Below, piece after piece: positions 2,807 through 31,219 of a stretch of DNA of 32,299 bases. Origin of the DNA: a virus. Below the pieces are notes generated by a model. It saw only the letters and a program-made list of their open reading frames with translations. It searched no databases and was not told the origin of the DNA. Numbering within the stretch: the stretch's first letter is position 1; the number at the start of each line of letters is the position of its first letter. The stretch is from positions 7,352-39,650 of the IMG/VR virus record IMGVR_UViG_3300033143_001789, one strand, 5' to 3'. Position numbers and translations under genes: made by a program.

Positions 2807-3283
2807 TTAGATAAGATTAAGTAATATTGACATCACTAAACCGATTCCTAAAACTATATTTATATTCTTTTGCTTATTGATTTTTGCATTTAATTTAGCA
2901 TTAACTTCTTTTATATGTAGATCTTTTTTCACTAATCTATCGCTAAAAGACTTTAAAGCTTCCTCTATGTGAGTATTTTCTACAGCAACTGGCTGACGCT
3001 CATCTACTACTTTATGGTCGATATGAGCTAAAACTTGGTCACTTAACTTTTGAACAACTTTAGAAACTGAATGAGTTCTTTGATCTAAGGTCACTACATC
3101 ACACTTTATCATCTCTATATCGCTCTGTAACGGGCTTAAATCAACATGTACTGGTTCTTGTACTATAACTTCAACTACCTCTTTAGAAGGTACTATAACC
3201 TCTTTTTGAGGTTCTTTAGCTTCAGGAAGTTCTGGTAATTTAGCTTCTAGCATTAAACCTTCACCAAATGTAATTTTTGCCAT
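2807..3283 (-). CDS. Tail-anchored coiled-coil protein
   Basis: 158 residues: an acidic, valine- and proline-rich N-terminal third, then a long heptad-like helical region (about residues 50-135), and a single C-terminal hydrophobic segment (NIVLGIGLVMSILLNLI, residues 142-158) that ends the protein. The layout is that of a C-tail-anchored membrane protein with a coiled coil. It overlaps both neighbours by one base (TAATG), so it is translationally coupled. A lysis or virion-membrane role is possible but nothing in the sequence decides it. Confidence 0.6.
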   Translation of the reverse strand: MAKITFGEGLMLEAKLPELPEAKEPQKEVIVPSKEVVEVIVQEPVHVDLSPLQSDIEMIKCDVVTLDQRTHSVSKVVQKLSDQVLAHIDHKVVDERQPVAVENTHIEEALKSFSDRLVKKDLHIKEVNAKLNAKINKQKNINIVLGIGLVMSILLNLI

Positions 3284-3696
3284 TAAGATCTCCCAACTAA
3301 ATGAACATCACCAATAGCATCAACTGACACTATTTTTATGCGTCTAGCACATACATCAATTATCATACTTTCGGTACCAACTTTAATAAAGAAAGAACCA
3401 CTATCGTTTGGGCTAACATAAACCTCAACGCCTCCAGAACCATCAACATCAACTCTTACTTGCTTTAAAGACGAACAATCTAGGGCAGGAATTACTTCTT
3501 GTCCTGCGTCTGCAACTTCAACGCCTATAGCACTTGCTGTTAATTTAGCTGGGTGACTTGTTACGCTATCACCATCTAGATGATTTAGTTCCATATTCAT
3601 TTCAGTATCTGTTATTTTAACACGTTTAGCCTTTGAAACAGGATCGTGCTCGTCTCTTAAAATATGAGTTGTATCTTTTTTTATTTTCCCAGTCAT
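3283..3696 (-). CDS. Small phage structural protein, unknown function
   Basis: 137 residues, no hydrophobic segment. The N-terminus has a THILRDEHDPVSKAKRVKI pattern, loosely like the QVIRSVYD...LRV openings of other small virion proteins in this window (6373-6651, 19106-19804). The second half is predicted beta: VRVDVDGSGGVEVYVSPNDS then a short GDVHLVGRS end. It sits between a tail-fibre gene and a membrane protein, with one-base overlap downstream. Probably a decoration or fibre-associated protein; this is inference from context. Confidence 0.5.
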   Translation of the reverse strand: MTGKIKKDTTHILRDEHDPVSKAKRVKITDTEMNMELNHLDGDSVTSHPAKLTASAIGVEVADAGQEVIPALDCSSLKQVRVDVDGSGGVEVYVSPNDSGSFFIKVGTESMIIDVCARRIKIVSVDAIGDVHLVGRS

Positions 3697-11270: not shown

Positions 11271-11471
11271 ATGGGAATAGTTTTTGTTTTTATATGTATG
11301 TATGTGTTATATATTTCAGTTACTGCTGGTGGCGGTGAACTTAATACACCGCTGAAGTGTCACGAAAAGAAAGAACCCCATAAATGGATTGAAAAGGAGC
11401 AAGATGGGAATATTTATATGGTTTGTGAAGTTTGTAAGGAGCTTCCAGGAGAAGGTAGTGAAGAAGGCTGA
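11271..11471 (+). CDS. Small membrane-anchored zinc-ribbon-like protein, possibly leaderless
   Basis: 66 residues. The N-terminal 20 residues are hydrophobic (GIVFVFICMYVLYISV). They are followed by a Cys/His cluster KCHEKKEPHKW ... CEVCKE, a C-x2-H...C-x2-C pattern like small phage zinc ribbons. The ATG lies at the predicted transcript start, leaving no room for a ribosome-binding site, so translation may be leaderless; an internal ATG at 11298 has no clear Shine-Dalgarno sequence either. It overlaps the endolysin gene at its 3' end. Membrane and zinc-binding features are visible; function unknown. Confidence 0.55.
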   Translation: MGIVFVFICMYVLYISVTAGGGELNTPLKCHEKKEPHKWIEKEQDGNIYMVCEVCKELPGEGSEEG

Positions 11472-11856
11472 GATACAGTTTAAAGATGATTCTATTAGAA
11501 TTACATCAGATTATGCTGATTTATCTAATCATAATGGACCTTTACGAGAGTTGATAGTCGATGTGAGTGAGTATGTATTTAGTGAATACAAGAAAAATAT
11601 AACAATTACAATGATTTACCGGACTCAAGCAGAGCAGGAAGGTATTTATGGGGTAGGTTATGCTAAGAAAAGTCCCCATCAATTCTGGCAAGCTATCGAT
11701 TTAAGGAGTAAAGTCTTTACAACAGAAGAAATTGATGATATAGTTGAGTATATTAATAATGGTTATAATAAGAGCAATTATTATAAATGGAGTGCTAAGA
11801 ATCACGAGGTTAATGGTCACGGTACTCATTTTCACATACAATACCTGGAGGTATAA
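11458..11856 (+). CDS. M15-family peptidase, probable endolysin
   Basis: 132 residues from a GTG at 11458 preceded by AGGAG with 5 nt spacing. An in-frame ATG at 11404 with AAGGAG 4-5 nt upstream would add 18 hydrophobic residues but overlaps the preceding gene by 68 nt, so I prefer the GTG. M15 metallopeptidase motifs are clear: IYRTQAEQ (about residues 53-60), SPHQFWQAID giving zinc ligands H74 and D81 (the usual Gly is Trp), and HGTHFHIQ with H124/H126. The family cleaves L-Ala-D-Glu or D-Ala-D-Ala links in peptidoglycan. Its place in a promoter-bearing cassette fits a lysis gene; the 11404 start would give a signal-anchor form. Confidence 0.75.
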   Translation: MKKAEIQFKDDSIRITSDYADLSNHNGPLRELIVDVSEYVFSEYKKNITITMIYRTQAEQEGIYGVGYAKKSPHQFWQAIDLRSKVFTTEEIDDIVEYINNGYNKSNYYKWSAKNHEVNGHGTHFHIQYLEV

Positions 11857-20628: not shown

Positions 20629-22764
20629 TTACTCTGGTAATACGTCTGCTGGGTCTGTTGGTAAATTTTCAAATGGAGCAGGTGGACTTGCTGGTTGTGG
20701 TAAAGTTTGATCTGGAGTAGCTCCTGGTTGTTCCATTGCGCCTTCAACTGAACCGTCCATACCACCTTGATTAACTAACTGATCTGGTCCTGGTTGATTT
20801 GCAGGAGATCCACCTGGAGGTGCTAAAGGCTGTTCACCGATATGCATCAACGTATCTGGATCAACATTTCTAAGAGCGTCAATATGCTCTTGAACATGAT
20901 TTAAAACTCTTGCAACTAATTCAGGATCTTCTTTTAATGAAGGATCTGATAAAACGTCTCTATGTTCTTTTATGTGAAGAGAATGTGGTTCGATTGCGAT
21001 AACTTGAATTTCTCCGCCAGCTACCATCTTTTCGTTCTCGGCTTTAACTAGCATTAACTGTCTATCAATACCATCAGTCATTGTCTCAAGCTTACCGCTA
21101 TTAATAACGCTGATATATTGTTCTGGTGTTTTAATTAAATTCATTTGAAGCATTTGCTCCGCCATCTGAACTCTACCTGCTGTAGTTTTTGCTAAAGGAT
21201 TTCCAACATCAACAATCACTCTATTAATTTGAGATAAATCGTCACCAGTAAATTCTTCCATATAAGTTCTATTAGCTTCACCAACAATTGTTGCTATTCT
21301 AGGAACAGAAGCAAAATCTTTTAATAGATTAACTAGTCCAGTACCAACATCTTCAATTAAAGTAACATAAGAATGTTGTAGTCCTGAGATAAATTGTAAA
21401 GACATACTTTGCACTAAAGCTAAAGCGTTACCAGATTTAAGAGATGATTCTGGATTACCACGAGATACAGAGTTTACTCCAGATACTGTTTCCATTGTTT
21501 GTTCTAACATTTCGATAAATTTAAAAACTTCTGGAGGGGTTGATGTTAAATTAAGAGCTTCGGGTTTCCCTATCTGTGCATTATATTCAATAATATTTAA
21601 TCCACCACTTATAGATGACGGGTTAATATCAGCACCACGAGGTATCATTACATTTTGAACGGCAAATGCGTTTTGGTTACTAAGAACTGCACTATAAAGT
21701 CCATTTAATGCGTCTTGAATTGGTAATAAATCAAAGGTATCAGTATATCCGTATGGAGTTCCAAGAATATCTCCAGGAGAAACTCTATATATTGGAAGTT
21801 TTCTATAGGGATTAACTGTGTCCATTAATACTGCATCAGATTCAACAAAAAGTAAATAACGACCATCAGGCATAGATTCAGTCTGTCTATGGTAAAATTC
21901 ATAAACAGCAATATCATCAGTTTCATCGTGATATACTCCACTGAAATCAAATCTTTCTTTTTGGTCTTTAGTTTCCTGTAAAAGAATTTCATCTTTCATT
22001 TCAGGATATTTAGCGGCCAAATCAAATCTGTTTTTAAATTGTCTAATTAAAACCCAATCTTGTTTTTGATTGTCTTCTTTTGTACTATCAAATACAACAT
22101 CAAAGGGCGATACTGTACTAAATACTACATCACCTTCATATATAGGATATCCAGCTTCGTCTTCTACAACGTTACCGTCTTCGTCAACTTCGTGGGTCTG
22201 TTCTCCGTTTTCATCAAGAACATCTTCCTCTTCGCCAGTTTCTTCATTCATTTGTCTTTGTATTTTATTTTTAGGCTCAACATAATCGTGAACTTCACCA
22301 GCAGTTGCGTTCCATTCCATTTTTACATAACCGGAACCAAATACAATTGCATGTTCTATTGCAGTTGAAAGATAGTCTTCGAGTCGCTTTTCTCTCATAT
22401 AATAGTCTAATAGTCCATTTGCTAATTTAGTCTGAACTAGAGATTTATAATCAGTATTAGTAGCTCTAGCCTGCATAGCTGGACGAGTCGCAGTAACCAT
22501 TGTAAGCATATGACGACATATATTACGATAGTGATTTACTGGAAGATTTACTAGTTCTCCCTGTTCTCCAGAGAATGTAATTCTGTGACCAGACCCAATA
22601 TCAGTGTAATAAGCTCCATGATATGCTGACCATGCTTCTTTTAATTTATCTAAATATCCATTAACAGCAAATGTGTGGAACCATTTGTTGGCTTTCTGAA
22701 GTACGATACGGGAGGTATCTTCACCTTCTTTTGATGCAAAATATTCATTATCTTTACCAGCCAT
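20629..22764 (-). CDS. Portal protein
   Basis: 711 residues, the size class of P22-like portals. The N-terminal core has NLPVNHYRNICRHMLTMVTA, TRPAMQARATNTDYKS and IEHAIVFGSGYVKMEW. Further on come NPYRKLPIYRVSPG, GTPYGYTDTFDLLPIQDALN and VSRGNPESSLKSGNALALVQ (stem and crown helices). The C-terminal 80 residues are Pro/Gln/Gly-rich. Portals form the dodecameric vertex through which terminase packs DNA. It lies just downstream of the large terminase and behind a late promoter element, with AAGGCGG before the ATG. A Glu/Asp-rich insert occurs near residues 160-200. Confidence 0.9.
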   Translation of the reverse strand: MAGKDNEYFASKEGEDTSRIVLQKANKWFHTFAVNGYLDKLKEAWSAYHGAYYTDIGSGHRITFSGEQGELVNLPVNHYRNICRHMLTMVTATRPAMQARATNTDYKSLVQTKLANGLLDYYMREKRLEDYLSTAIEHAIVFGSGYVKMEWNATAGEVHDYVEPKNKIQRQMNEETGEEEDVLDENGEQTHEVDEDGNVVEDEAGYPIYEGDVVFSTVSPFDVVFDSTKEDNQKQDWVLIRQFKNRFDLAAKYPEMKDEILLQETKDQKERFDFSGVYHDETDDIAVYEFYHRQTESMPDGRYLLFVESDAVLMDTVNPYRKLPIYRVSPGDILGTPYGYTDTFDLLPIQDALNGLYSAVLSNQNAFAVQNVMIPRGADINPSSISGGLNIIEYNAQIGKPEALNLTSTPPEVFKFIEMLEQTMETVSGVNSVSRGNPESSLKSGNALALVQSMSLQFISGLQHSYVTLIEDVGTGLVNLLKDFASVPRIATIVGEANRTYMEEFTGDDLSQINRVIVDVGNPLAKTTAGRVQMAEQMLQMNLIKTPEQYISVINSGKLETMTDGIDRQLMLVKAENEKMVAGGEIQVIAIEPHSLHIKEHRDVLSDPSLKEDPELVARVLNHVQEHIDALRNVDPDTLMHIGEQPLAPPGGSPANQPGPDQLVNQGGMDGSVEGAMEQPGATPDQTLPQPASPPAPFENLPTDPADVLPE

Positions 22765-22789: not shown

Positions 22790-22807
22790 TCATTTAATAT
22801 TTGTTAA
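22790..22807 (-). promoter_or_regulatory. Putative late promoter element, copy 2
   Basis: Minus strand TTAACAAATATTAAATGA, identical to copies 1 and 3, sits 26 nt upstream of the portal ATG. It overlaps the last codons and stop of the large terminase gene. Confidence 0.55.
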
Positions 22808-24234
22808 TTCTTAATTGACTTACGGACTTTAAACAATTTAGTAATTGCCTCGAATTGATCGTTGTCTGGAGTCCTACTGTATGCATTATCAGGAGATAAT
22901 ACACCATAATTGTTGGGATATGGGTTTTTACCGTATATTACGTTACGAATAAGGTATATAACCGCATCTAGAGCATCAAAGTGACCACCATCGGCACTTC
23001 TGGCAAATTGCTTATAATTACTCTGATTCATAGCCTTCTCAGACCGCCTAGCCCAGCTTCCCGACTTTAAATGATAGATTAATGTCTTACATCTAGGGTG
23101 TATTGACACCTCACGGTTCATTACCTTGAGTCTGACGTTGTTTATTGCAGCTTCTTTGTTGTCTTTCTTGGTTGGAAGGAAGTTTTTATCGGCAAACATC
23201 AAATATGGCTGTTTTTCGCCATATAGCTCTTCCATCTTCTTTTTAATGTTAGATGCGATATCCTTGCTATTTTGCTTGGTTCTCATCACAAATTCATCTT
23301 CAATAACCACTGTATTTTTCAGGAAATCGTAATATGCAAAGAGAATAACGGTGAAATCCTTGCCTCCGATATCCATTGATAGATATACGTCATAAAATGG
23401 GGGACGCTTATATTCGCCATTTACTATCTCTTTTTCGGCATCATCGTCAAATTCAGGAATTACTGTATTCTCGGCATTTCGTACAATTTCACAAAGATAC
23501 TCTGCTCGATATTTTGGATGCTTTCTGCCGCCGGGATATTGCTCCTCAATGGCCTTTTTGCGAGATTCGTCAAGTAGTGGATTGTCATCAATCGTATATT
23601 TATGCAATCTTCCTGCTAATTGCGCAGGTTCAACAAACTCTTTTATAAAATCATGCTCTGGGTTATCAGGATCTGGCGTAGAGGCTAGAATGCCTCTACC
23701 ATCAGTAGTTAACGTTGTTGGAGATAAAACCGATCTAACAACCGTATCGAGATCGTTACAGAATCCAGCTTCGTCTACTATCCAAAGGTCAGATTTACCA
23801 CCACGAATAGAATCATAGTTTTGGTTATCTGTTCCAGCCATCTGAATCTCGCTTCCATTAGGAAAAACATAGATCTTATCGGCTTCTTTGTATTCTGGTT
23901 TTATATCTGGGGGGCAATCTTCTAATAATTGACGCATAATCGGCTTAAGAATAGTTTTCACCATTCTTTGTTTAGGGCATACATATTTTACGATTGCATT
24001 CTTTTTTCGTAGGCAAGTCTCTATTGCTAGAGCGCACATAAGGTATGACTTACCAGTTTGGCGACTAATTAATAGTGTAGTAGTATAATCGGTACCGTTA
24101 TAGTACTTATCATAGATTACTTTTTGAAGATCGTGTAGTTTCCACTTTAAAACTCCCTTATTCCATAGGATTTTTATCGCTTGTTTTCGACTTACCTCTG
24201 CGCTTTGTTTTTTTGTTAGGGATTTCTTCGACAC
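22804..24234 (-). CDS. terL: Terminase large subunit
   Basis: 476 residues. The packaging ATPase has a variant Walker A ISRQTGKS (residues 56-63), Walker B LWIVDEAG (150-157) and coupling motif STP (185-187). The RNase H-like nuclease domain follows, with metal ligands in YLSMDIGGKD (D288), MFADKN (D349) and GHFDALDAV (D420/D423). It cuts concatemeric DNA and pumps it through the portal. The start is GTG at 24234 with AAGGAT 9 nt upstream; it overlaps the upstream small-subunit-like gene by 77 nt in another frame. Confidence 0.9.
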   Translation of the reverse strand: MSKKSLTKKQSAEVSRKQAIKILWNKGVLKWKLHDLQKVIYDKYYNGTDYTTTLLISRQTGKSYLMCALAIETCLRKKNAIVKYVCPKQRMVKTILKPIMRQLLEDCPPDIKPEYKEADKIYVFPNGSEIQMAGTDNQNYDSIRGGKSDLWIVDEAGFCNDLDTVVRSVLSPTTLTTDGRGILASTPDPDNPEHDFIKEFVEPAQLAGRLHKYTIDDNPLLDESRKKAIEEQYPGGRKHPKYRAEYLCEIVRNAENTVIPEFDDDAEKEIVNGEYKRPPFYDVYLSMDIGGKDFTVILFAYYDFLKNTVVIEDEFVMRTKQNSKDIASNIKKKMEELYGEKQPYLMFADKNFLPTKKDNKEAAINNVRLKVMNREVSIHPRCKTLIYHLKSGSWARRSEKAMNQSNYKQFARSADGGHFDALDAVIYLIRNVIYGKNPYPNNYGVLSPDNAYSRTPDNDQFEAITKLFKVRKSIKN

Positions 24235-24591: not shown

Positions 24592-24861
24592 TTAAAAGTA
24601 ACTTTTGGTTTTTAATCGATCAGTTGATTGTGACATTTTTAATGTACTCAACGCACTTTTAACTTCAGCTAGATCTTTTAAAACCGCTTCATCTAAGCTA
24701 TATGGCTGGAATCTCTTTAAGTATTGAGAATATCCATATAATGATGCTAGAACTAAAACAATTATACTATCAGCGAATGTTGGCTGAAGTATCATCATTT
24801 TGGCGACAAACGCTAAAAAAACGATTAGGGAATAGTTTATAACTAAGTTTTTCAACTTCAT
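24592..24861 (-). CDS. Small membrane protein with two hydrophobic segments, holin candidate
   Basis: 89 residues: hydrophobic segments at about residues 8-27 (INYSLIVFLAFVAKMMIL) and 30-47 (ADSIIVLVLASLYGYSQY), then a charged helical tail ending SQSTDRLKTKSYF. Size and topology suit a holin, but similar small membrane proteins next to terminase genes also occur with other roles. First sizeable gene of the packaging-structural transcript, 102 nt downstream of a late promoter element. Confidence 0.5.
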   Translation of the reverse strand: MKLKNLVINYSLIVFLAFVAKMMILQPTFADSIIVLVLASLYGYSQYLKRFQPYSLDEAVLKDLAEVKSALSTLKMSQSTDRLKTKSYF

Positions 24862-24980: not shown

Positions 24981-25053
24981 ATCCTGGCACAAATCGTGCA
25001 TATATCAATTATGTCTAACTTTTAGACACTTGTCAAGATAATAATAAAAATAA

Positions 25054-25082
25054 TTGACAATACATCATAATCGTGATATATT
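25054..25082 (+). promoter_or_regulatory. Sigma70-type promoter of the rightward accessory region
   Basis: TTGACA (25054-25059), 17 bp, TATATT (25077-25082). It drives the rightward gene block beginning with the subtilase; the predicted leader to the ATG at 25279 is about 190 nt. Confidence 0.75.
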
Positions 25083-25090
25083 GATAATGT

Positions 25091-25219
25091 AAGGCGGCGT
25101 GGGAAGCTGTTGGTGGTGGTCTTAGAGCCTTAAAACATAATGGTCCACTAACTGGAGACACGCTCTTGGTTACTGTTCATAAGCCAGATGAAGCTAGAAT
25201 ATATGCTGGATTTGAATGA
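25091..25219 (+). pseudogene. Protein-like frame without a start codon (C-terminal remnant or 1-nt-broken mini gene)
   Basis: 42 sense codons from AAG at 25091 to TGA at 25217-25219 read as a plausible small protein: KAAWEAVGGGLRALKHNGPL, then TGDTLLVTVHKPDEARIYAG. No in-frame start exists because TAA lies two codons upstream. However, an ATG at 25087 is exactly one base out of frame (ATG-T-AAG). It could be a broken leaderless mini gene, the tail of a lost gene, or chance. Not recognised as any family. Confidence 0.3.
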
Positions 25220-25278
25220 TGCGCAAAAGTACTTTGCCAGAGTCGCGACTGGCCCTTACCTTTTTTAAGGAGATTATT

Positions 25279-25926
25279 ATGAAATGGATTTTATTAATAT
25301 TATTATTTTCGATACCACTGCAAGCGAAGACATATCGAGTAGCTGTTATTGATACTGGACTACAGAAGAAATATATTTCAGAAGCCAATCTTTGCATAAA
25401 AGGACATAAGTCTTTTGTTAAAGGCGAAACTATTGTTGATAATCACGGGCATGGAACTAACATTGTGGGCTTAATTAAGAAAAACGCAGGAAATGCTGAT
25501 TACTGTATTGTCATTGTTAAATATTATAGTACATACAATCCTGCAGTAAATATGAAAAATCTTATTAAAGCTTTGGATTATGCTTCGACAATTAAACCGG
25601 ATATCATAAATTTAAGTTTAGGTGGCGGAGGTATAATAGTAAAGGAAAGATTATTAATTCGTAAGTTACTAAACGCTGGTACAATTATAAATGCGGCAGC
25701 AGGTAATGAATATACTAATTTAGATAATAACTGCAACTACTATCCTGCATGTTACGATAAGCGAATAAATGTGATTAGTGCTAAAGATTTTGATTCAGCA
25801 AATAAGGGACATGTCGTTTCAATATATGTAGATGGTAAAGATAGAAGTGCTTTTGGTTTTAAAATGACAGGAACCAGTCAGTCTACTGCAGTTTATACTG
25901 GGATGCTTATAAGAGGGATGAAATGA
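25279..25926 (+). CDS. Secreted mini-subtilase (S8 serine protease)
   Basis: 215 residues from the ATG at 25279, chosen because AAGGAGA lies 5 nt upstream and it begins a signal peptide (MKWILLILLFSIPLQA, likely cut after A16). The subtilisin triad is intact: VAVIDTG (D25), NHGHGT (H58), GTSQSTA (S200), with oxyanion Asn in AAGNE (N143) and the substrate strand INLSLGGGG (110-118). It is small for an S8 enzyme and lacks an N-terminal propeptide: the catalytic core starts directly after the signal. The 4-nt overlapping downstream gene also encodes an exported-looking protein and could be a partner. Probably acts in the host periplasm or outside the cell; target unknown. Confidence 0.85.
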   Translation: MKWILLILLFSIPLQAKTYRVAVIDTGLQKKYISEANLCIKGHKSFVKGETIVDNHGHGTNIVGLIKKNAGNADYCIVIVKYYSTYNPAVNMKNLIKALDYASTIKPDIINLSLGGGGIIVKERLLIRKLLNAGTIINAAAGNEYTNLDNNCNYYPACYDKRINVISAKDFDSANKGHVVSIYVDGKDRSAFGFKMTGTSQSTAVYTGMLIRGMK

Positions 25927-26174
25927 GCCTTATAGGGACGTTTATCCTAACGACAGCCATTAGTATAACTGCATCAAGAAGTCCGGCAAGTAACGAGGGA
26001 GACGCATATAGGGCGTTAACTAAAGCAACCTTCTTACAAACTGGCGTAGATGTAAAAGTTAAAGAGTTTGAAGAAGAATATATAAACGAAGATGTGAGGA
26101 AGTATACCGGATGGACAATGATAGTGATAAAGATATCAAGCGAGAAGAGAATAGGTTACGAATGGAAGTTCTAA
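25923..26174 (+). CDS. Exported small protein coupled to the subtilase
   Basis: 83 residues. The N-terminal SLIGTFILTTAISITA (residues 2-17) looks like a signal peptide or anchor. The mature part has alpha/beta character (AYRALTKATFLQTGVDVKVK, WTMIVIKISSEKRIGYEW). It shares ATGA with the protease stop, so the two are made together. Given that subtilases normally need an approximately 80-residue propeptide-type inhibitor/chaperone, a trans-acting propeptide is possible, but I see no I9-family signature. Confidence 0.55.
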   Translation: MSLIGTFILTTAISITASRSPASNEGDAYRALTKATFLQTGVDVKVKEFEEEYINEDVRKYTGWTMIVIKISSEKRIGYEWKF

Positions 26175-27290: not shown

Positions 27291-27503
27291 GTGACTTTTT
27301 TAACATTTTTATTATATTTTTTAGCATCAATGGTTATATATGATTTAAGTACATTCTTGGTTCTAACAACCATAAAATTCTTTGTACACAAGAGACTTCA
27401 AAACTCAATGCAACAAAACATGGAAGCTAATACAATAACATTAGAAGAATTAGTAGAGAAAATTAACGAATCTAAACAAGGGGACGATGGTACATGGCAT
27501 TAA
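27291..27503 (+). CDS. Small membrane-anchored protein, GTG start
   Basis: 70 residues from GTG at 27291 with GGGAG 5-6 nt upstream. One long hydrophobic N-terminal region (TFLTFLLYFLASMVIYDLST) then a helical, polar cytoplasmic tail (LEELVEKINESKQGDDG). Its end overlaps the metalloprotease gene by 10 nt. Confidence 0.55.
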   Translation: MTFLTFLLYFLASMVIYDLSTFLVLTTIKFFVHKRLQNSMQQNMEANTITLEELVEKINESKQGDDGTWH

Positions 27504-28042
27504 GATTCCTGATTATATCTTTTCTATTATTAATGGGATGCGGTACTCCCTTTTCAATATCTGGACCGAAGGTTGATCCTCAATTTGATTCATATGTCAA
27601 GACATATCTTGAACATAAGAGTAAATATGCTGGAGAAAGTGAAATGAATAACATAAGTATAGTATTCGCTTCACTTGAGGGTAATGTAGTTGGTACATGT
27701 TATTATCCTGGATTAATTGAGATAGATGCTACCTATTGGTTCAATACATCTGAGGCTAAACGTGAGATTTTAATTCACCACGAGTTGGGGCATTGCGATT
27801 TGAACATAATTTGGCATAGAGACCCTAAATCAATAATGCAACCACATATTATAGGATCGAATGAGTATGTAGACAATAAAGACTTCTATTTAAATGAATT
27901 ATTCTTCAATTATCCGTTTAATTCTCTTGACTATCTATACGAATCGGTGTATTATGAAACAAAGGAGAAAAAGCATGGAAATAGAAAAAGAACTCATACT
28001 TCTTGTCGGTCCCATAGGATCGGGGAAGACCACATTCGCTAA
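27494..28042 (+). CDS. Lipoprotein zinc metalloprotease (HELGH, metzincin-like)
   Basis: 182 residues. Signal peptide with lipobox LLMGC (acylated Cys16), then IHHELGHCDLN with the HExxH zinc motif at residues 96-100. A third ligand candidate is H108 or D110, and SIMQP (113-117) resembles a metzincin Met-turn. The protein would sit on a membrane facing the periplasm or outside. The last 20 or so residues (GNRKRTHTSC onward) are read over the start and P-loop of the next gene in another frame (68 nt overlap), so the C-terminus may be a recent read-on. The target is unknown. Confidence 0.7.
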   Translation: MALRFLIISFLLLMGCGTPFSISGPKVDPQFDSYVKTYLEHKSKYAGESEMNNISIVFASLEGNVVGTCYYPGLIEIDATYWFNTSEAKREILIHHELGHCDLNIIWHRDPKSIMQPHIIGSNEYVDNKDFYLNELFFNYPFNSLDYLYESVYYETKEKKHGNRKRTHTSCRSHRIGEDHIR

Positions 28043-28409
28043 GAGTCTACAGAATGATAACTATATACGTATATCGCAAGATGAAATGGGCCGGAAGGCT
28101 TATCTTACTCATTTTAAATCCGCAGTAAGAGATGGCGTTCCTAGAATTCTTGTGGATAGACAAAACTTCAATAAAGAACAACGAGAACGCTTTATCACGC
28201 CAGCTAGAGATGCAGGTTACTGTGTTACTATATTCGAATTTAAAACTAATAGAGAGGTATGTGCTGAACGTGTAGTTAATCGCACAAACCATCCAACGGT
28301 TCGTGGCGGAGACGTTGATCTTACTATGGATATTATTAAAAATTATGAAAGACTTTACGAACAACCTACTCCAGATGAGTATGATAATTATAATGAGGTA
28401 ACAGGATGA
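27975..28409 (+). CDS. Polynucleotide 5'-kinase-like P-loop kinase
   Basis: 144 residues from the ATG at 27975, with AAAGGAG about 10 nt upstream. P-loop VGPIGSGKTT (11-20), acceptor-side ISQDEMGR (33-40), VDRQNFNKEQRER (60-72) and lid arginines in VNRTNHPTVRGG (101-112) fit the Pnk/AAA_33 kinase group. The final HPTVRGGDVD...YERLYEQPT segment matches T4 Pnk-type kinases. There is no attached HAD phosphatase. With the ligases and phosphoesterase that follow, it probably phosphorylates 5'-OH RNA ends for repair. Confidence 0.75.
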   Translation: MEIEKELILLVGPIGSGKTTFAKSLQNDNYIRISQDEMGRKAYLTHFKSAVRDGVPRILVDRQNFNKEQRERFITPARDAGYCVTIFEFKTNREVCAERVVNRTNHPTVRGGDVDLTMDIIKNYERLYEQPTPDEYDNYNEVTG

Positions 28410-29332
28410 GTAAGAAGTTTAAAAGATATAATTCAATAGAAAATTCATATAGACAAAAGTATTTACTAAATTGCTTGGCAGCATATCCTGAATTACAAAA
28501 TATTAAATACTCTATTAGGGAAAAGATTGATGGTTCTAATCTGCAACTATACTTTGAACCTAATGTTGAAATGAAAGTTGGAAAACGTTCAGGATTTATA
28601 TCTAAAGACGATAGTTTTTTTGACGTATGGACTGTATTAGATTCCTATATGGATCTATTATTACGCATACAGGCAGACGTTGATAATGGTGATGTTCCTT
28701 TAAGACTATACTGCGAACTGTGTGGTCCTGGAGTACAGAAAAGAGTTAACTATGGTGATAAAAAGAAATTAGTATTTTTTGATATCGAGATTGATGGAGA
28801 GATGGAATCTCAATTGTATTTTGAAAGATTTTGCTCAGTCTTCGGTATAGAGGACGTTGCTCCTCTATTGGGATACGCAGAATCATTAACAGAAGCTTTA
28901 GATTTTGATGTAAACTTTGATAGTAAAATTCTTGGTATAGAAAATAACGCATCTGAAGGTGTTGTGATTAAACCGTATCTTGAGGAATTTACTATGGGTA
29001 ACGGATCTAGATTCATCCTTAAAAAGAAGAGCGAAAAGTTTGCAGAGAAAATGAAGGTAAAAGTTCCGAAAGAAGAACTGTCATCAGAAACTGTTAAATA
29101 TATGTTGGAATTTAAAAGTTACATAACCGATAATAGAATCTTGGGTATATTCTCGAAGCATGGTGAGATACAGGAAATGAATCAGCTTGGTACATATATA
29201 AACTTAGTAATAGATGATGCTAAAGAGGATTTTTTAAAAGATAATGATATATCAGCTTTAGATTCTAAAATTACTAAAAAGATATTTAACGTTGGCGGAA
29301 AAGTAGTAATTATGTTGAAAGGATATTTATAA
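28406..29332 (+). CDS. RNA ligase, T4 Rnl2-like
   Basis: 308 residues. Nucleotidyltransferase motifs in order: REKIDGSN with AMP-accepting K40, GKRSGF (59-64), LYCELCG (E104), FFDIEID (124-130), ASEGVVIKP (182-190) and ILKKKSEKF (204-212). About 95 helical residues follow, the size of the Rnl2 C-terminal domain. Rnl2-type enzymes seal 3'-OH/5'-phosphate nicks in duplex RNA. The gene overlaps the kinase by 4 nt, which supports a joint RNA-repair role. Confidence 0.85.
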   Translation: MSKKFKRYNSIENSYRQKYLLNCLAAYPELQNIKYSIREKIDGSNLQLYFEPNVEMKVGKRSGFISKDDSFFDVWTVLDSYMDLLLRIQADVDNGDVPLRLYCELCGPGVQKRVNYGDKKKLVFFDIEIDGEMESQLYFERFCSVFGIEDVAPLLGYAESLTEALDFDVNFDSKILGIENNASEGVVIKPYLEEFTMGNGSRFILKKKSEKFAEKMKVKVPKEELSSETVKYMLEFKSYITDNRILGIFSKHGEIQEMNQLGTYINLVIDDAKEDFLKDNDISALDSKITKKIFNVGGKVVIMLKGYL

Positions 29333-29565
29333 TGAATAAGGTAGAATTAGATTTATATGATTTTGACAAGCTAAGAGAAGATCGTAAAAGATTGAATCGC
29401 ATACAAGAATTAATGAAAAAACTTCCAGTAGAATTTACCGGACTTTACAGAAACGAAACCTCGGCAGGTTATGGAGGAGGGCAGCCATTTGTTAATCTAG
29501 AAGTTAAGGAAATGGATAACTTACTATTGTCAATTAGACGAGAGTTGGGTAGAGTATATGACTAG
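29332..29565 (+). CDS. Small protein between the two RNA ligases
   Basis: 77 residues: YDFDKLREDRKRLNRIQELM helical start, then FTGLYRNETSAGYGGGQPFV and LEVKEMDNLLLSIRRELGRV. No motif recognised. It overlaps both ligase genes (1 and 8 nt), with AAAGGAT before the ATG, so it is co-translated with the repair cassette and may be an accessory subunit. Confidence 0.55.
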   Translation: MNKVELDLYDFDKLREDRKRLNRIQELMKKLPVEFTGLYRNETSAGYGGGQPFVNLEVKEMDNLLLSIRRELGRVYD

Positions 29566-31219
29566 GTGGTTCACTGCAGATCTTCACTTTGGTCATCGTA
29601 ATGTCATCGGCTTTTGCCAAAGACCATACAAAGATATCCAGGAAATGGAAGAGAAGATAATCGAACAGTGGAACTCTCAGGTTGCTCCAACAGATGAAGT
29701 TTGGTTTTTAGGCGACTTCGGCATCAATAAAAGAAAATGTTTTGATACTGAGTTAGTGTCTAAACTTAATGGTCATAAATTTATTATTGTAGGAAACCAT
29801 GATTCGTTCTTTGTTAGAGGACATGAAAGTGTGCTTAAGTTCGAAGCACAGTATCGTGAGAAATATTACAAAGCAGGATGGGTTGGTGCCTATACTGAGT
29901 ATTTAATGCAACTAAAAAATGGAGACTTAGTTAATCTGAGTCACTTACCTCCAAGCAACGAGCACGATACTAGATATTCTCATTTTAAATTACAGAATTA
30001 CCCAACTATAACGTACCTGCACGGCCATCTTCATGCGCATTATCTCAAAAAGGATAATATGATAGATGTTGCTTTCGATACTGAACTTAAACTATGGTCT
30101 GAGGATGACATCATAGAGATTATGAAAGATAAGAGAACATTTATTCCAACCAGATTAACAAAAGATTATACCGAAGTATCATTATTTTTAAAACCATTTG
30201 AAGAAGAAGTAAAAAAGAAGAACTTAAGAAAGTCAGTTAAACAAGATCTCGTCCTTTATAACTACACAGACCAATGCGTATTTAATAAAGAATGGAATGA
30301 AGTGACTAGACATTCTCGTGGAATTATTATGGATAGAAATACAGGAAAGTTTGTGGCTATCCCTTTTCCAAAATTCTTCAACCTATCCGAGCAACATGAA
30401 ACTCGCATAGAGAATCTTCCTGACGAACCATATACTGTCTCTAAGAAGATGGATGGATCATTGGGTATAATTTACTTCCATAAAGATAAATGGAACGTGG
30501 CTACTCGTGGTTCATTTGAGAGCGAGCAAGCTAAACGCGCAGAAGAGATACTTAAAAAGTATGATATGACGGAGATCCCGACAGAGCTAACACTTTTAGT
30601 TGAGATCATATATCCTGAAAATAAAATAGTAGCCAATTATGGTGATGATGAGAAGCTTGTGTTACTCTCTGCAGTAAATGTTGAAACTCAAAAAGAAGTT
30701 GATAGGAATACTTGCGAATTAATCAATAGAGATTCAGGAATTGAGTTGGTTGAAGAGTATGATTATACAATTGATGAAATGATCGAACTTCAAAAGACCT
30801 TACCTAAAGATGAGGAAGGATTCGTTGTTAGATTTGAGTCTGGTCTTCGAGTAAAGATAAAAGGCGATGAGTACTGTAAGATTCATAGACTAATTTCACA
30901 TATGACACCTCTTGCTTTCTGGAATTCTATGGATAATGGTAAAGTTAAAGTTGAATACATACAAGAACTCCCAGAAGAGTTTCGTAAAGAGGCCGAAGAC
31001 TTAACTGAGCGTCTGGAATATGAATACAAAGATACTTTGAAGTATATACATAAGTGTTATGACCTCGCACCAACAGATTCAGCTAAAGAGTTGGGTCTAT
31101 ACGTTCAAAATAGTTTACCAAAACATGGCGGAGCATTCTTTTCTATATTTAATAACGATAAAGAGCGTCTAGATAAGTATGTGAGTAAATATATAAGGCC
31201 CACAGGAAACGTTATATGA
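29558..31219 (+). CDS. Metallophosphoesterase-RNA ligase (Rnl1-like) fusion
   Basis: 553 residues. Residues 1-190 are a calcineurin-type phosphoesterase: TADLHFGH (D8, H10), FLGDFG (D53), VGNHD (N80, H81), LSHLPP (H129), HGHLHA (H157, H159). Residues about 230-553 are a covalent nucleotidyltransferase like T4 RNA ligase 1: HSRGIIMD, FPKFFNLSE, VSKKMDGSLG with K297, ATRGSF, LLVEIIYPENKIV (E349), EGFVVRF (420-426) and LRVKIKGDEY (430-439). The phosphoesterase can be expected to remove 2',3'-cyclic or 3' phosphates so that the ligase can join ends. It resembles a rearranged bacterial Pnkp, with the kinase encoded separately at 27975. Confidence 0.85.
   Translation: MTRWFTADLHFGHRNVIGFCQRPYKDIQEMEEKIIEQWNSQVAPTDEVWFLGDFGINKRKCFDTELVSKLNGHKFIIVGNHDSFFVRGHESVLKFEAQYREKYYKAGWVGAYTEYLMQLKNGDLVNLSHLPPSNEHDTRYSHFKLQNYPTITYLHGHLHAHYLKKDNMIDVAFDTELKLWSEDDIIEIMKDKRTFIPTRLTKDYTEVSLFLKPFEEEVKKKNLRKSVKQDLVLYNYTDQCVFNKEWNEVTRHSRGIIMDRNTGKFVAIPFPKFFNLSEQHETRIENLPDEPYTVSKKMDGSLGIIYFHKDKWNVATRGSFESEQAKRAEEILKKYDMTEIPTELTLLVEIIYPENKIVANYGDDEKLVLLSAVNVETQKEVDRNTCELINRDSGIELVEEYDYTIDEMIELQKTLPKDEEGFVVRFESGLRVKIKGDEYCKIHRLISHMTPLAFWNSMDNGKVKVEYIQELPEEFRKEAEDLTERLEYEYKDTLKYIHKCYDLAPTDSAKELGLYVQNSLPKHGGAFFSIFNNDKERLDKYVSKYIRPTGNVI

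Follow-up and report, generated by a model that had tools for sequence, protein, structure and literature searches.

The virus-derived DNA analyzed here encodes a small subtilase that is probably, though by no means certainly, an early-expressed, stand-alone exported protease of the host envelope, consisting of the catalytic core only. The stretch (32,299 nucleotides, hereafter the window) corresponds to positions 7352-39650 of a 39650-base IMG/VR virus record. At least 18 further phage contigs in public metagenomes, recovered by alignment-based scans of viral contigs, carry a mini-subtilase of the window design, and a literature search whose coverage left out most subscription journals returned no paper on exported phage mini-subtilases.

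The protease gene (25279..25926, plus strand, as are all features within it) encodes 215 residues. Its product matches the S8 model PF00082 (E 5.3e-11, 42.8 bits against a curated cut-off of 21.8), its best phage family match is phrog_3677, described as 'protease' (E 2.7e-28), and subtilisins of solved structure were matched by phmmer (E 3e-13). The S8 triad and the oxyanion-hole Asn are present as Asp25 (25351..25353), His58 (25450..25452), Asn143 (25705..25707), and Ser200 (25876..25878, in the motif GTSQSTA), and all four are invariant in 19/19 members of the family described below. Residues 1-16 (MKW..LQA, 25279..25326) form a predicted signal peptide, with a Lys before the hydrophobic core (2.99) and a cleavage site read by eye; the relatives look alike in this respect. 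Because just 24 residues precede Asp25, signal peptide included, the protein has no propeptide, and the pre-pro-mature layout of subtilisins with an N-terminal I9-type propeptide does not apply to it. The description given in the initial annotation, a complete triad right behind a signal peptide with no propeptide in 215 residues, was therefore accurate, and the product is, from its sequence, an S8 enzyme with predicted proteolytic activity and predicted export.

The subtilase is the first rightward gene, and a sigma-70-like promoter on the plus strand (TTGACA-17-TATATT, with TG before the -10 box; 25054..25082) lies ahead of it, in agreement with the earlier claim that it is the first gene behind a rightward promoter. 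A divergent sigma-70-like site on the minus strand (25008..25036) points towards the packaging genes. Both have 11/12 consensus matches; promoter-like sites numbered 13 against 6.8 expected by shuffling, so the two sites at 25008-25082 are to be taken as consensus matches only. Promoter and protease are separated by a leader some 200 bases long (25083-25278, plus strand), which contains an open frame stretch without a start codon and, immediately ahead of the protease's ribosome-binding site, a terminator-like hairpin (25236-25253); Rfam matched no RNA element in the leader or elsewhere in the window. Attenuation or a gene remnant are possible explanations of this leader. The surrounding genes include phage packaging, structural, and RNA-repair-like genes, the last forming a cluster at 27894-31219 (plus strand) with a P-loop kinase, a T4 Rnl2-like RNA ligase, and a 553-aa protein with a T4 Rnl1-like ligase domain. 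Genes for a large terminase subunit (22804-24234) and a portal protein (20629-22764) run leftwards, and on the minus strand there is also an 89-aa protein with hydrophobic stretches (24592-24861, minus strand) beside a small terminase-like gene; this protein looks holin-like by eye and has relatives in records L008, L034, L037, and L041. The large terminase subunit and portal have their nearest relatives in a phage of Silvanigrella aquatica, with only 28% identity, which suggests an unsampled Gram-negative bacterium as the probable host. Replication genes surround the protease in records L011-L015, which, together with its divergence from the packaging genes, argues for early or middle expression.

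The family comprises 19 phage mini-subtilases, namely those of the window and of records L008, L009-L018, L020, L021, L025, L028, L034, L036, and L037. The first alignment scan gave 25 loci, from which L019 was left out as a copy of L018, and L022, L023, L024, L026, L027, L029, L030, L031, and L032 were left out as larger or intracellular-type subtilases; L033, L035, L038, L039, L040, and L042 are the same loci as L008, L016, and L034 and were not counted again. Only alignment-based scans succeeded, as single-sequence scans of viral contigs with the protease or its partner as query returned no relatives, and one bacterial genome contig scan returned two ordinary large subtilases only and no bacterial source of the family. 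Record L006 served only as a comparison and outgroup row outside the 19 members. It encodes a 265-aa lipoprotein mini-subtilase (2890-3687, plus strand) on a faecal contig labeled bacteriophage, which looks bacterial and by eye bears a tryptophan-synthase-like gene.

Across the 19 members, 16-56 residues precede the catalytic Asp, signal included, and there is no room for a propeptide in any of them. The catalytic Ser is followed by 15-35 residues in 18/19 members and by 76 in L037. Lys or Arg precedes the hydrophobic core in 15/19 proteases; for L010 and L018, whose start codons are uncertain, this count used starts at 2243 and 5812, respectively, and the alignments used 2264 and 5878, while one alignment has the L034 row beginning a codon too early. 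A lipobox Cys was read by eye in six members (L011, L012, L017, L021, L025, and L036). The closest relative, in L008, is 55% identical to the window protease. Divergence by codon position was that of coding genes, with the third position changing most, in all six comparisons for both protease and partner. In the protease tree, the window and L008 group together (100/98), followed by L034 and L010; its deeper forks lack resolution, and therefore the number of partner gains or losses is not readable from the tree.

The standard example of a protein that needs its propeptide for folding is the secreted mesophilic subtilisin, and the high-affinity calcium loop of subtilisin lies at residues 75-83. 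A structural model of the L037 protease, built with the family alignment, has core blocks mostly at pLDDT >90, and a fold comparison (VIA) aligned model residues 21-225 with subtilisin chain residues 25-243 at Z 25.5, with calcium-independent BPN' variants among its best fold matches. Nothing in the mini-subtilase core of this model corresponds to the initial 24 or roughly the final 32 residues of mature subtilisin. Helix 59-71 of the model runs into strand 76-82 within four residues, so the calcium-A loop is missing from it. In the window protease, Cys39 (25393..25395) is proposed to form a disulfide with Cys76 (25504..25506); both are Cys in 12/12 proteases of subfamily A, and the Cys76 position is Cys in 19/19. 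A further disulfide is proposed between Cys152 (25732..25734) and Cys158 (25750..25752), as both residues occur together in five members and neither occurs in the other 14. In a second group of proteases, all 7/7 share four Cys that make up another set. Such matched sets are what disulfides in an oxidizing periplasm would give, with the pairing deduced from co-occurrence over few independent events, not from coordinates, and with the tree silent on how often the sets arose. The matched Cys sets and the missing calcium-A loop together make the family look built to fold alone. When its calcium loop is removed and a disulfide is engineered in, subtilisin reportedly refolds far more quickly in the absence of the propeptide, and QhpE, a small subtilase compared below, is not known to have a propeptide, consistent with its 219-position profile. 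According to one report, Bacillus subtilisins made without propeptides remain inactive, whereas for some archaeal ones calcium is enough to bring about folding (PMC10580911). From QhpE, the calcium-folding archaeal subtilisins, and the loop-deleted subtilisin, it follows that a missing propeptide alone demands no helper in trans.

The gene that follows the protease (25923..26174, plus strand) shares ATGA with it (25923-25926) and encodes 83 residues, as the initial annotation had noted. Clear homologues of this partner occur in L008, L034, L016, and L041. The L015 and L020 records encode weaker partner-like proteins at a distance from the protease (E 5.6e-5 and 3.9e-5). Of such small proteins away from the protease, those in two large phages, at L043 2422-2670 (minus strand) and L044 1957-2301 (plus strand), end in WEF and WTY. 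A C-terminal W-x-F (W-x-Y once) is kept in 7/7 partner-like proteins. The N-terminus had been called signal-like; it is indeed hydrophobic, but Lys or Arg precedes the hydrophobic core in 0/7 homologues, which sets it apart from typical signal peptides, and it may rather be a membrane anchor. The partner has no confident match to any Pfam, PHROG, or PDB profile, and a PDB profile search with the seven partner-like proteins gave a best hit of E 1.8, to an unrelated protein. Its AlphaFold model is all-helical, at low confidence (pLDDT 63, pTM 0.31). An outer-membrane protein of beta-hairpin type, considered on the basis of its C-terminus by eye, was rejected, as the low-confidence model is helical and no match in a viral fold search had an E below 1.7.

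The pair recurs in L008, L034, and L016, always with the partner directly downstream and its start inside the protease gene; the overlap is 13 to 23 bases in these three and 4 in the window. This recurrence answers the earlier call to look for it in other phages. L016 is a distant phage, its protease being 33-36% identical, and since the pair is kept there, protease and partner may travel as a unit. Adjacency in four of the five clear partner loci, distant L016 among them, suggests more than accident. A bolder reading, which we regard as doubtful, would see in the family a natural counterpart of the engineered subtilisin, able to fold without a propeptide thanks to disulfides in place of a lost calcium loop and serving as an early envelope weapon of phages that infect Gram-negative and perhaps predatory bacteria; in one lineage it would have become a mobile two-gene module, whose partner, with a WxF tail like that of outer-membrane proteins, might dock in the protease or engage the outer-membrane assembly machinery.

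It is unlikely that the partner replaces the propeptide as a chaperone and inhibitor acting in trans, with its conserved C-terminal WxF tail placed in the active site. The overlap in 4/4 adjacent pairs, the retention of the pair in L016, and the W-x-F/Y ending of 7/7 partner-like proteins are consistent with this idea, and Phe is a P1 residue favored by subtilisins. However, the initial annotation had named protease genes without the partner in related phages as the finding that would count against it, and this is the prevailing arrangement: the partner directly follows the protease in 4/19 members, and 15/19 have no adjacent partner, a count based on 12 neighborhoods (duplicate L019 left out), L037, and whole records including L036, several of which are fragments, so that an absent partner may sit beyond a record end. 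In L041, the partner is present at the same syntenic place and there is no mini-subtilase in the 70.8-kb record. The I9 inhibitor/propeptide fold is mixed alpha/beta and ferredoxin-like; propeptide models including I9 of Pfam matched none of the seven partner-like proteins at E up to 10, in a run without a proven-I9 positive control, and the helical low-confidence model and the lack of a basic n-region also speak against this role. The C-terminal extension of the L037 protease resembles the partner as a weak lead only: considered as a fused partner, it scored 5.8 bits against the profile and was beaten by >10 of 1000 shuffles, it is modeled as helical (pLDDT 49-83), and it went unreported in the partner search of the 19 records. 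Taken with the QhpE precedent, these findings leave the trans-chaperone idea weakened and do not bear out the claim that folding or inhibition must come in trans; the partner is a frequent companion of the protease in one lineage and non-obligatory.

An improbable alternative is that the partner is the substrate, trimmed by the protease as QhpE trims QhpC. The report on QhpE describes a small single-turnover subtilase that removes a leader peptide in the cytoplasm and whose substrate, QhpC, is encoded in the same operon (PMC7876137). QhpE is the nearest named family of the window protease, and the overlapping genes would give similar amounts of protease and partner. Against this, most family members have no partner, L041 keeps the partner without the protease, and the window protease carries a signal peptide whereas QhpE, in that account, is cytoplasmic (PMC7876137).

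Further probable envelope proteases occur near the mini-subtilase. In the window, 27494-28042 (plus strand) encodes a lipoprotein with a PhageMetallopep domain (PF18894, E 8.3e-06) and an HExxH motif, probably a second exported protease, which belongs to the rightward gene block of the mini-subtilase and lies 1.6 kb downstream; it has relatives in L008 and L041. In L009 (5965-7925, plus strand), the mini-subtilase gene is overlapped by that of a 90-aa lipoprotein, and next comes a trypsin-like protease with a membrane anchor (Trypsin_2, E 3.8e-12); the three make up an envelope-protease cassette in which another small protein takes the partner's place. Relatives of the L009 trypsin-like protein were found within 5.5 kb in 6/20 neighborhoods compared and those of a ClpP-like protein in 7/20, with Pfam consulted for the trypsin-like protein in L009 and L017 and for the ClpP-like protein in L009. 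Phages with mini-subtilases seem to invest in envelope proteases. An anti-phage defense role was set aside, PADLOC having given weak matches to subtilase entries only. That the protease would help lysis by attacking envelope proteins at the end of infection and so free the progeny is improbable. Export, the lipobox forms, and the probable lipoprotein metallopeptidase downstream would suit such a role, but the transcript runs opposite to the packaging and structural genes, replication genes adjoin in L011-L015, and an endolysin-like gene lies elsewhere in the window (11389-11856).

Under the preferred reading of an early, stand-alone envelope protease, the enzyme would be made from the first rightward transcript, early or mid infection, and would reach the periplasm via Sec, or a membrane in the case of the six lipobox members. 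The loss of the calcium-A loop and of both ends of mature subtilisin would let it fold there with no propeptide, disulfides holding the core, and it would cut or trim a protein of the host envelope. The partner would be a small protein, exported or in a membrane, that evolves on its own and in the window lineage is translated together with the protease; it may modulate a protease that works without it in the rest of the family. The benefit to the phage, the least certain step, could be envelope remodeling or exclusion of other phages. Small exported subtilases would thereby join the products that phages apparently deliver to the envelope of their host, and subtilases exported without room for a propeptide offer natural material for testing what replaces it.

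The phrog_3677 profile has 1125 positions, of which the window protease matches 598-804 only. Annotated phage-borne S8 proteases are those of Bacillus phages Goe3, Goe8, SP-15, and BcoS-136 (283-375 aa); the BcoS-136 and Goe3 peptidases have no signal peptide at the N-terminus and seem to be intracellular, and those of Goe8 and SP-15 are annotated features. Mycosin is an exported S8 protease, and its model (TIGR03921) gave a weak match of 36.5 bits, below the cut-off of 278.75; no type VII secretion genes were recognized by eye in the window. QhpE (NF049966) was matched at 50.8 bits, far below its curated cut-off of 165, with residues 20-210 of the window protease covering positions 1-188 of the 219-position profile. 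The two share an S8 core of about 220 residues and a gene beside that of a small protein, but QhpE lies in the qhp operon, whereas the window protease has no qhp genes around it. With Subtilisin Carlsberg and BPN' (S8A), the mini-subtilases share the fold (Z 25.5 for L037), the catalytic residues, and the oxyanion Asn; unlike these subtilisins, they have no propeptide, lack about 24 N-terminal and 32 C-terminal mature residues, and possess a shorter calcium-A region, with cysteines instead.
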